A stretch of DNA of 64,000 nt, taken from Phytoactinopolyspora limicola (lineage in GTDB: Bacteria; Actinomycetota; Actinomycetes; Jiangellales; Jiangellaceae). This document shows, in pieces, positions 39,966-58,923 of the stretch (positions within the stretch are counted from its first letter, which is position 1; every line of letters starts with the position of its first letter). The notes under the pieces are model-generated. The model was given only the letters and a program-made list of their open reading frames with translations. It was not told the DNA's origin and searched no databases. The position numbers were made by a program, and so were the translations under genes. The stretch is from assembly GCF_011320225.1 (NCBI RefSeq), contig NZ_JAAOEN010000017.1, forward strand, positions 32,909-96,908, given 5' to 3'.

Positions 39966-40859
39966 ATGGAAGCCGCCCCCGTGTCCGGTCCGACGGCGCG
40001 GCTCGATACTCGAGACGTGACCCGTTGGCTCGTGACCGGTGCGAGCGGCCTCCTTGGCCGCGACCTCGTTCCCCTGCTGCCACCAACCCACACGACGGCG
40101 CCGACCAGTAGCGATGTGGACGTGAGAGACGAGCGCCGAGTATTCGACGCGATCGCCGGACACGACGTCGTGGTACACCTGGCCGCCTGGGTCGACCCGG
40201 ACCGCGCCGAGGCTGAACCCGACCGGGCGATGGCGATCAACGCCGCCGGCACCGAGAACGTCGCGCGAGCCTGCCGTGCACATCACGCCCGGCTGATTTA
40301 CGTCTCCAGCGACTACGTCTTCGATGGCCGCGCCGACCATCCGTACCAGGAGGACGCACCAACCCACCCGATCTGTGTCTACGGGCGCAGCAAGGTGGCC
40401 GCGGAGCAGGCGGTCCGGCGGCATCTGCCGGACGACGGGATCGTGTTGCGCACCGCGTGGCTCTATGGCGCCTACGGCCGGAGCTTCGTCGCTACGATGC
40501 GCCGCCTGGCCGACGAGGGTACGTCTCCGTCCGTCGTGACCGACCAGACCGGCCAGCCGACGTGGGCTCGCGACGTTGCCCAGCGCATCCTGGAGGTAGT
40601 GCGAGTTGGTGCGCCTGCCGGGACGTACCACGCTACCAACGGAGGGGCCACGAGCTGGTATCAGCTGGCCCGGACGGTGTTCGCGGCGTTGGGTCATGAC
40701 CCAGACCGAGTCCGGCCCATGACCTCCGACCGGCTCGACCGCGCCGCCCCGCGGCCGGCCTATTCCGCGCTCTCGCACGCTGGCTGGGCCCGCGCCGGCC
40801 TACGGCCTTTGCGCCCATGGCGCGAGGCGTTCGACGCGGCCGTGCCGGTCCTGTTCTGA
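39966..40859 (+). CDS. rmlD: dTDP-4-dehydrorhamnose reductase
   Basis: A 297-residue RmlD-type reductase, last step of dTDP-L-rhamnose synthesis. Motifs: GASGLLGRDL, YVSSDYVFDG, YGRSKVAAE, and the C-terminal LRPWREAF. The start at 39966 is plausible; a GTG at 40017, just before the Rossmann strand, is an alternative. The other three rml genes are in the convergent operon to the right. Its stop codon lies at the edge of the perfect palindrome at 40859. Confidence 0.93.
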   Translation: MEAAPVSGPTARLDTRDVTRWLVTGASGLLGRDLVPLLPPTHTTAPTSSDVDVRDERRVFDAIAGHDVVVHLAAWVDPDRAEAEPDRAMAINAAGTENVARACRAHHARLIYVSSDYVFDGRADHPYQEDAPTHPICVYGRSKVAAEQAVRRHLPDDGIVLRTAWLYGAYGRSFVATMRRLADEGTSPSVVTDQTGQPTWARDVAQRILEVVRVGAPAGTYHATNGGATSWYQLARTVFAALGHDPDRVRPMTSDRLDRAAPRPAYSALSHAGWARAGLRPLRPWREAFDAAVPVLF

Positions 40860-40936
40860 CGTTCCCCTCCCATGATCATGAACACTTTGCCGTGCCATGG
40901 CACGGCAAAGTGTTCATGATCATGGGAGGGGAACGT
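40859..40936. terminator. 78-bp perfect palindrome between convergent rmlD and rmlC
   Basis: Arms of 39 bases are exact complements with no spacer, centred on CCATGG; for example ACGTTCCCCTCCC at the left end matches GGGAGGGGAACGT at the right. It begins at the last base of the rmlD stop and includes the final codons and stop of rmlC. A bidirectional terminator is the simplest role. Confidence 0.85.
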
Positions 40937-41537
40937 GGTGGGGGGCGAGGCGAGGCAAGGCGCCGGCCAGCCGGGCTTGCTCCAGCGTCGGCGCGGCGGC
41001 GTCGCGGGGAGACAGCAGCGGTGTCATCGGCCGGCCTCGCCGGTCGATGTCGGGCCACTCGATGGCCAGGTGGGGGTCGAGCGGGTTGATCGTGCGCTCC
41101 CGTTCGGGAACGTAGTCCGACGAGCACAAGTAGGTGATCACGGACCCGTCCTGCAGCGACATCACCGCGTGCCCGAGCCCTTCGGATAGGTAGACCGCGC
41201 GCCGTTCGGCGTCGTCGAGCAGCACGGCGTCCCATTCCCCGAACGTCGGCGATCCCTCACGCAGGTCGACGACGACGTCGAAGACGGCACCATAAGGACA
41301 CGTGACGTGTTTGGCCTGCCCCGGGGGGACGTCGGTGACATGGATGCCGCGGATGGCCCCGGCCGCCGACACCGCGCAGTTCGACTGGCGGACCGGCATG
41401 GCCGAACCCAGGACCGGCTCCAACAGGTCCTGCTGAAACCAGACGGCCAGCGTGCCCCGGTTGTCGTGAAAACGGGGTGGCGTGATGATCCAAGCGCCCG
41501 GAATGGTCATCGGCTCTACCCGAGAATGTTCGGTCAC
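40920..41537 (-). CDS. rmlC: dTDP-4-dehydrorhamnose 3,5-epimerase
   Basis: A 205-residue cupin epimerase starting at the GTG at 41537 with GAGGAGG six bases upstream. Family landmarks are FHDNRGTLAVWF, the catalytic His in RGIHVTDVPPGQAKHV, and FDVVVDLREGSPTFG. The last four codons and stop are within the 78-bp palindrome. It is the third gene of the leftward rmlA-rmlB-rmlC operon, 55 bases after rmlB. Confidence 0.93.
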   Translation of the reverse strand: MTEHSRVEPMTIPGAWIITPPRFHDNRGTLAVWFQQDLLEPVLGSAMPVRQSNCAVSAAGAIRGIHVTDVPPGQAKHVTCPYGAVFDVVVDLREGSPTFGEWDAVLLDDAERRAVYLSEGLGHAVMSLQDGSVITYLCSSDYVPERERTINPLDPHLAIEWPDIDRRGRPMTPLLSPRDAAAPTLEQARLAGALPRLAPHHVPLP

Positions 41538-41592
41538 GGCGTCCTCCTCGGATCGCGGTCGCTTGTACGGGTGGTGCACCCGCGGTGTCCGG

Positions 41593-55304: not shown

Positions 55305-55351
55305 GACCGTGAGTGCCGGTCCGACAGGGGAGCGGACCGGCACTCACGGTC
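55305..55351. terminator. Inverted repeat with 18-bp stem
   Basis: Arms GACCGTGAGTGCCGGTCC (55305-55322) and the exact complement (55334-55351), 11-base loop, between the two short GntR genes. Probably a terminator for the rightmost one. The rest of the gap 55178-55448 holds nothing recognised. Confidence 0.7.
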
Positions 55352-55719: not shown

Positions 55720-57702
<1,983 letters not shown>

Positions 57703-57720
57703 ACGCCGGCATCGGGGCGC

Positions 57721-58725
57721 TCAGGCCGCCCGACGGTAGGTGTGGACGTCTCGGTACCAGGGGAACGGATGGCGCTGCACCGGTTGTGACGCGATGGCGT
57801 GCCGGAACCGCCCAGCCAGTTCGGCTCGGTCATGGCGAGCCAGCCGCCACCCGTACCGGCAGATCTCGAAGCCCGCCTGGCGTAGCCGCCATTCTCGTTC
57901 GCGTTGCCGATCGACGACGGTGGCCGCATCTGGCCCGCTGTACTTGAGGGCGCCGTCGCCCTCGAAGATCAGCCACTGGTCATCCAACAGGTGATCGGCT
58001 CGATACCGGGCATCGCCGAGGTCGATCCAGGGGTTAGAGACGGGCACTGGAAGATCCGCATCGATGAACGTGAGGCGGCCCAGCGTCTCGAGTGCGGACT
58101 CCGCGTATGGGTCGGCATGCTCGATCACCCACCGTGCCCCGGCCACCCCGGGCCAGTGGGGCATGAGCTCCAGCACGCCGGCTAGGTCCGCAGGGTTGTT
58201 GCCCAGGGCCAACGCCGCGTCGGCGAGCACGAGGGCCTCCGCGCGGGACGTCGTACGAGCGAGGTCGACGGTGGCGCGGGCGGGCGACAGCACGGGGACG
58301 CCGTCGACGACATCACGATGCCCGACGGGTAGCGCCGCGACCCGCACCTGGCCGAAGGCAGAGTTGGTGGCGGTGCCATACCCGATGGGCACCACAACCG
58401 TGGGGGTCCGCGGAGGTGCGGTGATCGTCGGCCACCCCCGGAGGGCCACCGCGGACCACCCGGCGGCGTGGGCGAGGCCGCCGACTGCCAGGGTGAACGC
58501 GCGGGAACGCAGCGCGAACGCCGGCCACGGGGGCAGGGCGTGGTACATCTCGGCGCTGGCGTACGCGCCGCGGGCGAGGCGGACGAGCAACCCGGCTCGG
58601 ACGAGCCTGAGCAGGCGGTGGGGCGGCACGCCGGCGCCGGCCGCTCCAGTGACCGTGAGCACACCGCGCCCGGCGGTGAGCAGCAACTCGACATCGCCGG
58701 GTAGACGGGTTGGGCGGGGCGGCAT
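57721..58725 (-). CDS. AbiEi-antitoxin-like/DUF559 domain protein
   Basis: A 334-residue protein of a kind common in actinobacteria: an N-terminal AbiEi-like winged-helix region (PPHRLLRLVRAGLLVRLARGAYA), a central helical part, and a C-terminal DUF559/Vsr-like nuclease fold (YRADHLLDDQWLIFEGDGALKY ... RQREREWRLRQAGFEICRYGW). Asp and Glu of the nuclease motif (DHLLDDQ, FEGDG) are present. ATG at 58725 begins the domain; no good ribosome-binding site. It stands between the two copies of the hairpin repeat. Function unknown, possibly defence-related. Confidence 0.72.
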   Translation of the reverse strand: MPPRPTRLPGDVELLLTAGRGVLTVTGAAGAGVPPHRLLRLVRAGLLVRLARGAYASAEMYHALPPWPAFALRSRAFTLAVGGLAHAAGWSAVALRGWPTITAPPRTPTVVVPIGYGTATNSAFGQVRVAALPVGHRDVVDGVPVLSPARATVDLARTTSRAEALVLADAALALGNNPADLAGVLELMPHWPGVAGARWVIEHADPYAESALETLGRLTFIDADLPVPVSNPWIDLGDARYRADHLLDDQWLIFEGDGALKYSGPDAATVVDRQREREWRLRQAGFEICRYGWRLARHDRAELAGRFRHAIASQPVQRHPFPWYRDVHTYRRAA

Positions 58726-58827
58726 GCCGTTTATCGTCGCCTGGCTTGGCGTGTCCCGGGAGGGGGAAGATCGCGGATGTGGATAAGTGGGCGTCGACCC
58801 GACCGTGTCCTGTGGACAACCACCGTG

Positions 58828-58923
58828 CTGACGTCGGGCGGCGGCCGTCGTCGGCACTTGCTGGTTTTATATGACGGATCCGGGCCGGTTCGGGGCTGGC
58901 ATGCGTCATAGAAAGCCAGCAAG
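58828..58923. repeat. 96-base hairpin repeat, copy 2
   Basis: Differs from copy 1 by one indel and four substitutions. Substitutions in the stem keep pairing (C-G to U-G, U-G to U-A), consistent with a folded RNA or a mobile hairpin element. Confidence 0.85.

Follow-up and report, generated by a model that had tools for sequence, protein, structure and literature searches.

Repetitive extragenic palindromic (REP) sequences are tagged with GTAG or CGTC at one of their ends, according to the definition in one part of PMC3733652, and the RAYT genes that accompany them are described in a section of PMC8049555 as single-copy and vertically inherited. For the CGTC-tagged REPs, which are palindromic repeats like those described here, the same part of PMC3733652 gives no known RAYT partner. 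Extragenic palindromes also serve as insertion sites for REP-targeting insertion sequences (ISPsy8, ISPa11 and others; a portion of PMC1525189). Among DNA-binding proteins, a passage of PMC7319586 states that the promoters of AbiEi and Rv2827c contain inverted repeats to which these proteins themselves bind.

Here we describe a 78-bp perfect palindrome that is probably a non-autonomous member of a dispersed hairpin family, the partner of which is the gene for an AbiEi–Vsr/DUF559-like protein lying between hairpins of its own. As in REPIN/RAYT systems, short, palindromic, high-copy extragenic hairpins are matched to a gene for a protein. The hairpins differ in being longer, nearly symmetric and ATGATCAT-ended, and the protein in being of AbiEi type with a Vsr-like part. 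The existence of the dispersed family and of the matched gene units is well supported.

The palindrome lies at the junction of an rmlD-like and an rmlC-like gene in the window (the whole 64,000-nucleotide stretch of Phytoactinopolyspora limicola DNA that was analysed; Table 1). Its two 39-nt arms (40859–40897 and 40898–40936) are 100% complementary with a spacer of 0 nt. The TGA stop of the rmlD-like gene (40857–40859) meets the first base of the palindrome, and the rmlC-like gene, which is encoded on the minus strand, has its end at 40920, within it. The earlier note on this DNA, which described a perfect palindrome of this length covering the C-terminal codons of rmlC and touching the rmlD stop, is borne out on each of these points. 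In a palindrome scan of the window the element takes first place (score 39; runner-up 17.5), and its RNA fold has an energy of −81.6 kcal/mol against a mean of −32.6 (s.d. 3.7) for 200 shuffles (z −13). An Rfam search over 40500–41300 returned miRNA families only, each scoring below its gathering threshold; matches of this sort are to be expected from a long hairpin. Shorter palindromes with scores of 13.5–17.5 are also present in the window near 55327, 46636, 51675 and 35093.

Table 1. Features of the window, numbered from its first base.
Feature	Coordinates	Strand	Remarks
Perfect 78-bp palindrome, comprising the core, its CCC/GGG borders and outer arms that differ among copies	40859–40936	.	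Arm comparison, palindrome scan
52-bp family-A hairpin core, ATGATCAT...ATGATCAT	40872–40923	.	
Left CCC border	40869–40871	.	Belongs to the element or to its target
Right GGG border	40924–40926	.	
Outer left arm, copy-specific	40859–40868	.	Pairs with 40927–40936
Outer right arm, copy-specific	40927–40936	.	
Central four bases, CATG	40896–40899	.	Loop position of the fold; least-paired place among copies
rmlD-like gene	39966–40859	+	RmlD_sub_bind PF04321, E 1.7e-87; host gene stopping at the palindrome
rmlC-like gene	40920–41579	-	dTDP_sugar_isom PF00908, E 1.3e-51; host gene with its stop codon in the element
Hairpin, first flank of the second unit	57636–57702	.	Family sequence-unrelated to that of the palindrome
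AbiEi_4 ORF	57721–58857	-	C-terminal part aligns with the 91-sequence profile in the nuclease region; start uncertain
Partner hairpin of the second unit	58857–58923	.	64/67 identical to 57636–57702, direct orientation

The palindrome is one of many copies in its own genome (6.59 Mb in 40 contigs). A similarity search gave 103 candidate places, and all 40 of the 40 that were scored matched (worst E 1.9e-21). The pattern AACACTTT-N18-AAAGTGTT occurs 75 times and its reversed control 0 times, which excludes chance; another exact palindromic pattern occurs 51 times, again against 0 for the reversed control. Pairs of ATGATCAT spaced 22–52 bases apart number 129 (reversed control 0), and the roughly 50 of them that were listed belong mainly to families A (GAACACTTTGCCG..., the window's own) and B (TGGCTTTTGACTACCGGATCC...). 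Single arms match at 72 forward and 76 reverse places, and the unpaired arms that were compared among the places listed, a set to which C12:380813 does not belong, have a variant partner arm.

The search for copies elsewhere in the genome and in relatives that the earlier note had proposed finds them in both. Within the bacterial family f1, to which the window's genome belongs, 20 of the 22 genomes contain the ATGATCAT pair pattern and 19 of the 22 hold at least 11 pairs; the lone match in G009 does not look like a hairpin. Further afield, one related hairpin was present in a 400-kb sample of G126, and a high copy number is thus demonstrated within the family only. No match to the family-A pattern was found in viral contigs, and none of 80 rmlC homologue loci from named genomes (best identity 61%) has the hairpin pattern. 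In these genomes the statement of the earlier note that such palindromes are rare, since cells tend to delete them, is not borne out. A further long palindrome family (GCACTCCGCTACCGCCAGATGG...), the ends of which are not ATGATCAT, has two copies in 400 kb sampled (L251, about 13862; L253, about 17796).

The note had also raised an assembly fold-back artefact. The genome is a draft assembly in which one 6-kb stretch appears twice, on two contigs, which lends this idea some colour; the copies have differing flanks and occur in many separate genomes, some of which are single-contig assemblies, and we regard an artefact as excluded for practical purposes. The repeated stretch is identical over 6034 bp at L067 (G000:C18) and L082 (G000:C36), reflecting either duplication or redundant assembly.

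We read 69 family-A copies, from 60 loci and the window. The 68-copy set used below omits L082, which is still counted in the per-position pairing, core-length and weak-ORF (n = 69) figures. Of the 70 ATGATCAT pairs in own-genome loci, 69 are 52 bp long, and of the 23 pairs in the congener G002, 22 are 51 bp long. Counting from the centre outward, the second pair is formed in 35 and the third in 58 of the 69 copies, and the other core pairs in 62–69; weak pairing at the second and third positions is expected if the hairpin has a loop of some four bases. In all 69 copies, positions 17–24, which the search patterns left unconstrained, are unchanged in both arms, and loop positions are variable.

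Beyond the core, positions 29–37 vary among copies, yet pairing within a copy exceeds pairing between copies: outer pair runs of at least 6 occur in 24 of 68 copies, against a control mean of 0.83 and maximum of 4 in 300 shuffles. Copies in G002 have weak outer pairing, with three outer positions above control (p about 0.025 each). The core is bordered by CCC and GGG in 56 of the 68 own-genome family-A copies, in 17 of 24 copies in G002 and in 10 of 17 in G014, so that both ends are alike and the GTAG or CGTC end tag is absent. The hairpins thus differ from CGTC-tagged REPs in lacking a CGTC tag at one end, and also in having a matched gene. No excess of direct repeats indicative of the target-site duplication that marks a MITE was detected in the own-genome copies for boundaries 24–45 from the centre.

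Genes around the copies were called with a simple codon-usage gene finder. The 68 family-A copies lie between codirectional (39), convergent (18) or divergent (11) genes and never within a gene, which together with the 129 pairs gives the REP/REPIN trait of high-copy, short extragenic palindromes; when the threshold for calling genes is relaxed, 1 of 69 lies in a weak ORF. In codirectional spaces the upstream stop is closer than the downstream start in 34 of 39 cases (p 2e-6), and of the 64 genes with a 3′ end no more than 60 bp away, 28 have the TGA of the element itself as their stop codon. The host proteins at 40920, L033, L037, L043, L067 and L069 end with a proline followed by the element-supplied stop codon, which indicates that insertion has reshaped protein C termini.

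Gene ends are therefore favoured by the hairpins, and a terminator role is not required for that. That they are plain bidirectional transcription terminators, which arose and were kept in place at each gene end, we consider very improbable. Proximity to gene 3′ ends, the convergent setting of 18 of the 68 copies and the very stable fold would suit such a role, as would the long hairpins found in random stretches at 12 of 48 convergent but 5 of 55 divergent junctions, a count that includes some family copies. Against this, a terminator scan of 40600–41200 found no stem followed by a U-tract, the 11 copies between divergent genes are not a significant depletion (p 0.10) and the convergent copies not a significant enrichment (p 0.23). 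Moreover, termination needs neither identical arms nor an exact length of 52 bp, and three congeners manage without a hairpin at the rmlD/rmlC junction. What may survive of the bidirectional terminator proposed in the earlier note is transcription termination as a by-product at gene ends.

In those congeners (G002, G003 and G004; L193–L195), the convergent rmlD/rmlC arrangement is kept with the gene ends nearly touching, and neither ATGATCAT nor a long palindrome lies between the genes; their rmlD-like proteins are 63–65% identical to that of the window. The window's element was thus either gained in its own lineage or lost in three. Near 1473 in L194, the G004 junction reads CTGATCACC, where the two stop codons together form a TGATCA palindrome. 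Conversely, the G002 elements L181@3003 and L177@3003 are absent from the counterpart spaces of the window's genome, which contain one 5-pair and one 6-pair palindrome. At L172/L057 an element is present in both species beside one shared flank. Most of the other comparisons between the two genomes (L188/L077 and the own-genome elements at L030 and L028) align too poorly at the site to be informative.

Two empty sites with short palindromes and one hairpin nested in the loop of another (L249) suggest insertion at the centre of pre-existing palindromes, which would also fit the copy-specific outer arms. At none of the three empty rmlD/rmlC junctions is a clear palindrome present, which weakens this idea and leaves palindrome targeting a suggestion. 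Alternatively, the outer arms may result from extension of the palindrome after insertion. Insertion at extragenic palindromes would recall ISPsy8 and ISPa11 as described in the available portion of PMC1525189, with the difference that the inserted item here is itself a hairpin. The earlier note had offered a recently duplicated and inverted gene end as a further origin, for which the occurrence of the identical core beside unrelated genes leaves no support; its third guess, a mobile hairpin, fares best of the three given the high-copy dispersed family, the matched gene and the junction that is empty in three congeners.

In several genomes, pairs of hairpins about 1.0–1.1 kb apart enclose a homologous ORF of about 300 amino acids. 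A profile built from eight of these unit proteins, searched against 393 genomes of the class, matched 144 at E 1e-20 or better. Among the matches listed, those from the genera g1 and g3 score about 450–623 bits (one fragment 226), G026 scores 432, and all others score at most 317, including the family genome G007 (309). The 58 listed matches from g1, g3 and G026, for which five candidates were scored per genome, form our unit set. The window's genome has four profile matches, two of which were listed and read: L288 (same as L051; G000:C10) is flanked by family A hairpins and L333 (G000:C12) by family B.

Hairpins flank most of the 58 units. A strict test for a GATC-ended hairpin is positive upstream in 42, downstream in 45, on both sides in 38 and on neither in 9; the corresponding numbers in a loose test are 49, 46, 43 and 6. 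Control windows give 11 of 1420 (strict) and 18 of 1420 (loose) in random stretches of the own genome, which contain elements themselves, and 1 of 1738 and 11 of 1738 at loci from other genera. All eight discovery units have both hairpins; excluding them, both are present in 30 of 50 and neither in 9 of 50. Hairpins that flank one unit have a likeness of 94%, compared with 61% for hairpins from different units, and rank in the top tenth in 37 of 38 cases; their relative orientation is direct in 18, inverted in 17 and undecided in 3 of the 38. The MITE trait of ends shared with a gene-bearing element is thus present in the form of matched flanking hairpins. Units measure 1080–1303 bp (43 measured), which leaves no room inside for a second, AbiEii-type gene. 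No plasmid match to the unit protein was found at E 1e-10, and in phages there were two matches, both weak (29% and 41% identity) and both in records that carry no annotation.

Among 91 members of the partner protein family, Pfam identifies AbiEi_4 (PF13338) in 69 and DUF559 (PF04480) in 12, and the PADLOC AbiEi model matches all 91; searches of NCBIfam and PHROGs gave weak, unhelpful matches only. An AlphaFold2 model from the 91-sequence alignment has a pLDDT of 91.6. Its residues 1–185 resemble the AbiEi antitoxin 6y8q (Z 12.6, 4.2 Å, 178 residues aligned), and residues of about 191–295 resemble NGO0050 (3hrl; Z 12.0, 2.6 Å, 92 residues aligned of a 94-residue chain), which we take to be a DUF559 protein, the homing endonuclease I-Bth0305I (3r3p; Z 11.6, 2.3 Å, 95 aligned) and Vsr (1cw0; Z 9.4, 2.5 Å, 97 aligned). 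TnsA is also in the fold list (Z 6.0). Foldseek E-values are weak (I-Bth0305I 0.08; NGO0050 0.14), and an earlier model from eight sequences had a pLDDT of 73.7 and a weak nuclease match (Z 5.8).

The C-terminal part is thus predicted to have a nuclease fold of the Vsr/DUF559 type. Within it, H207, D227, H245 and D257 (numbered as in L288) are invariant in the 91 sequences, and E238 and D240 are conserved in at least 90%. The protein shares this modelled fold with I-Bth0305I/Vsr-type nucleases and DUF559 proteins and differs from them in its fusion to an AbiEi-type part and in being flanked by hairpins. With the AbiEi antitoxins of type IV toxin–antitoxin systems it has the N-terminal part, a winged-helix DNA-binding one, in common; the additional nuclease-like part and units too small to hold an AbiEii-type gene set it apart.

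The protein and its hairpins vary together. Between genomes of genus g3, protein identity correlates with hairpin identity (r 0.50, n = 40, p 0.0003; permutation maximum 0.27), although the p value is a guide only because related sequences are not independent. For 31 of the 40, the nearest protein in another genome carries the same hairpin family, against a background of 11%. Units of several species occupy common chromosomal sites (11 groups of 2–6), at which the hairpin family sometimes differs, so the unit genes do not look freely mobile; in this they resemble the vertically inherited RAYTs portrayed in that section of PMC8049555. At different sites, mean protein identity is 0.793 for 71 same-family pairs and 0.698 for 1155 different-family pairs.

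The presence of the gene also follows that of the hairpins across genomes. A homologue at E <1e-100 exists in 17 of the 19 family genomes with at least 11 pairs and in none of the 3 with 0–1 pair; outside the family, among the matches listed, only G026 has one, and this genome has pairs. Exceptions are G005 (41 pairs) and G011 (40 pairs), in which the five candidates scored per genome are distant homologues only, and G234, a genome outside the family that has 13 pairs and no protein match at E 1e-20. A lower-scoring set of 35 more units, of which G007 contributes one and other families 34, has a strong hairpin (score at least 14) within 600 bp upstream in 15 and downstream in 9, against 9 of 384 control windows. 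In L353, L360–L363, L365 and L368 the hairpins on the two sides of the gene appear similar on visual inspection and have sequences unrelated to ATGATCAT.

The window itself contains a second unit (57636–58923). It was located by its hairpins and the kind of gene was found afterwards; it is one case, identified after the hypothesis had been formed. Its ORF matches AbiEi_4 (E 1.6e-9) and not DUF559, and aligns over nearly its full length with the 91-sequence profile (E 4.8e-8, search space set to 40000). The unit adjoins a 620-amino-acid ORF (55747–57609) that appears CTP synthase-like by eye.

Two alternatives accept the association and explain it differently. In the first, the hairpins are binding sites of an AbiEi-type protein, serving self-regulation and the control of many genes, and are kept by selection and not moved by the protein. 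The binding of inverted repeats by AbiEi and Rv2827c recorded in the cited part of PMC7319586 is a precedent, in many units the upstream hairpin lies about 95–135 bp ahead of the matched coding start, and invariant arm bases with variable loop bases are what a binding site might show. We nevertheless hold this to be unlikely: the bias of codirectional copies towards the upstream stop makes for a poor promoter operator, the hairpin is also downstream of the gene in 45 of 58 units, hairpin sites differ among species, and the nuclease-like part is left without explanation.

In the second alternative, a different transposase moves the hairpin, which would be a repeat of MITE-like or REP-like type, and the AbiEi/nuclease gene has the role of a passenger, one that targets hairpins or became trapped between them. 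The transposase search covered the Y1 type alone: the RAYT-type domain Y1_Tnp (PF01797) is absent from all 22 genomes of f1, the window's own included, and matches in 2 of 40 genomes searched, both from other families. The units at shared sites with changing hairpin families could be read in the same way, as could the hairpin pairs that enclose other genes (L264, L265, L269 and L270, which are 4 of the 9 loci of one set, and six more at L172, L058 (two), L064, L066 and L191). However, protein and hairpin family co-vary at different sites too, and such pairing is seen again, with hairpins of unrelated sequence, in other families and at 57636–58923 of the window, making a passenger gene a decidedly doubtful account.

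We infer instead that the unit protein most likely copies or moves the hairpins. The protein would recognise the arms of its own hairpin and cut or nick DNA, and new hairpin copies would arise in the course of repair. Landing sites would show a preference for gene ends, with some sites suggesting the centre of an existing palindrome, and a hairpin at a gene end may additionally act as a two-way transcription stop. The best reading of the hairpins and their partner gene is a REPIN/RAYT-like system with a different enzyme; we rate it a variant and not a member of the REPIN/RAYT kind because neither a RAYT gene nor the end tag was found. The wider proposal, that hairpin populations are copied in trans by an AbiEi–Vsr fusion nuclease, in specific co-evolving pairs that extend across the class and involve many unrelated hairpins and that form a new class of mobile repeat, seems to us evenly poised between right and wrong. 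In open-licence literature, we found nothing on hairpin repeats combined with such a gene, and a search with the arm sequence gave no paper there.

If the wider proposal is true, many genes labelled as AbiEi antitoxin or DUF559 would encode the enzymes of hairpin systems like this one, and the extragenic hairpin repeats of bacteria would have a second type of partner enzyme beside the known one. A testable role would fall to an actinobacterial gene family that has been little studied, and each nuclease-like protein, being paired with its own predicted DNA substrate, would be suited to specificity tests. It would also account for the commonness in these genomes of long perfect palindromes, which are normally thought to be unstable.
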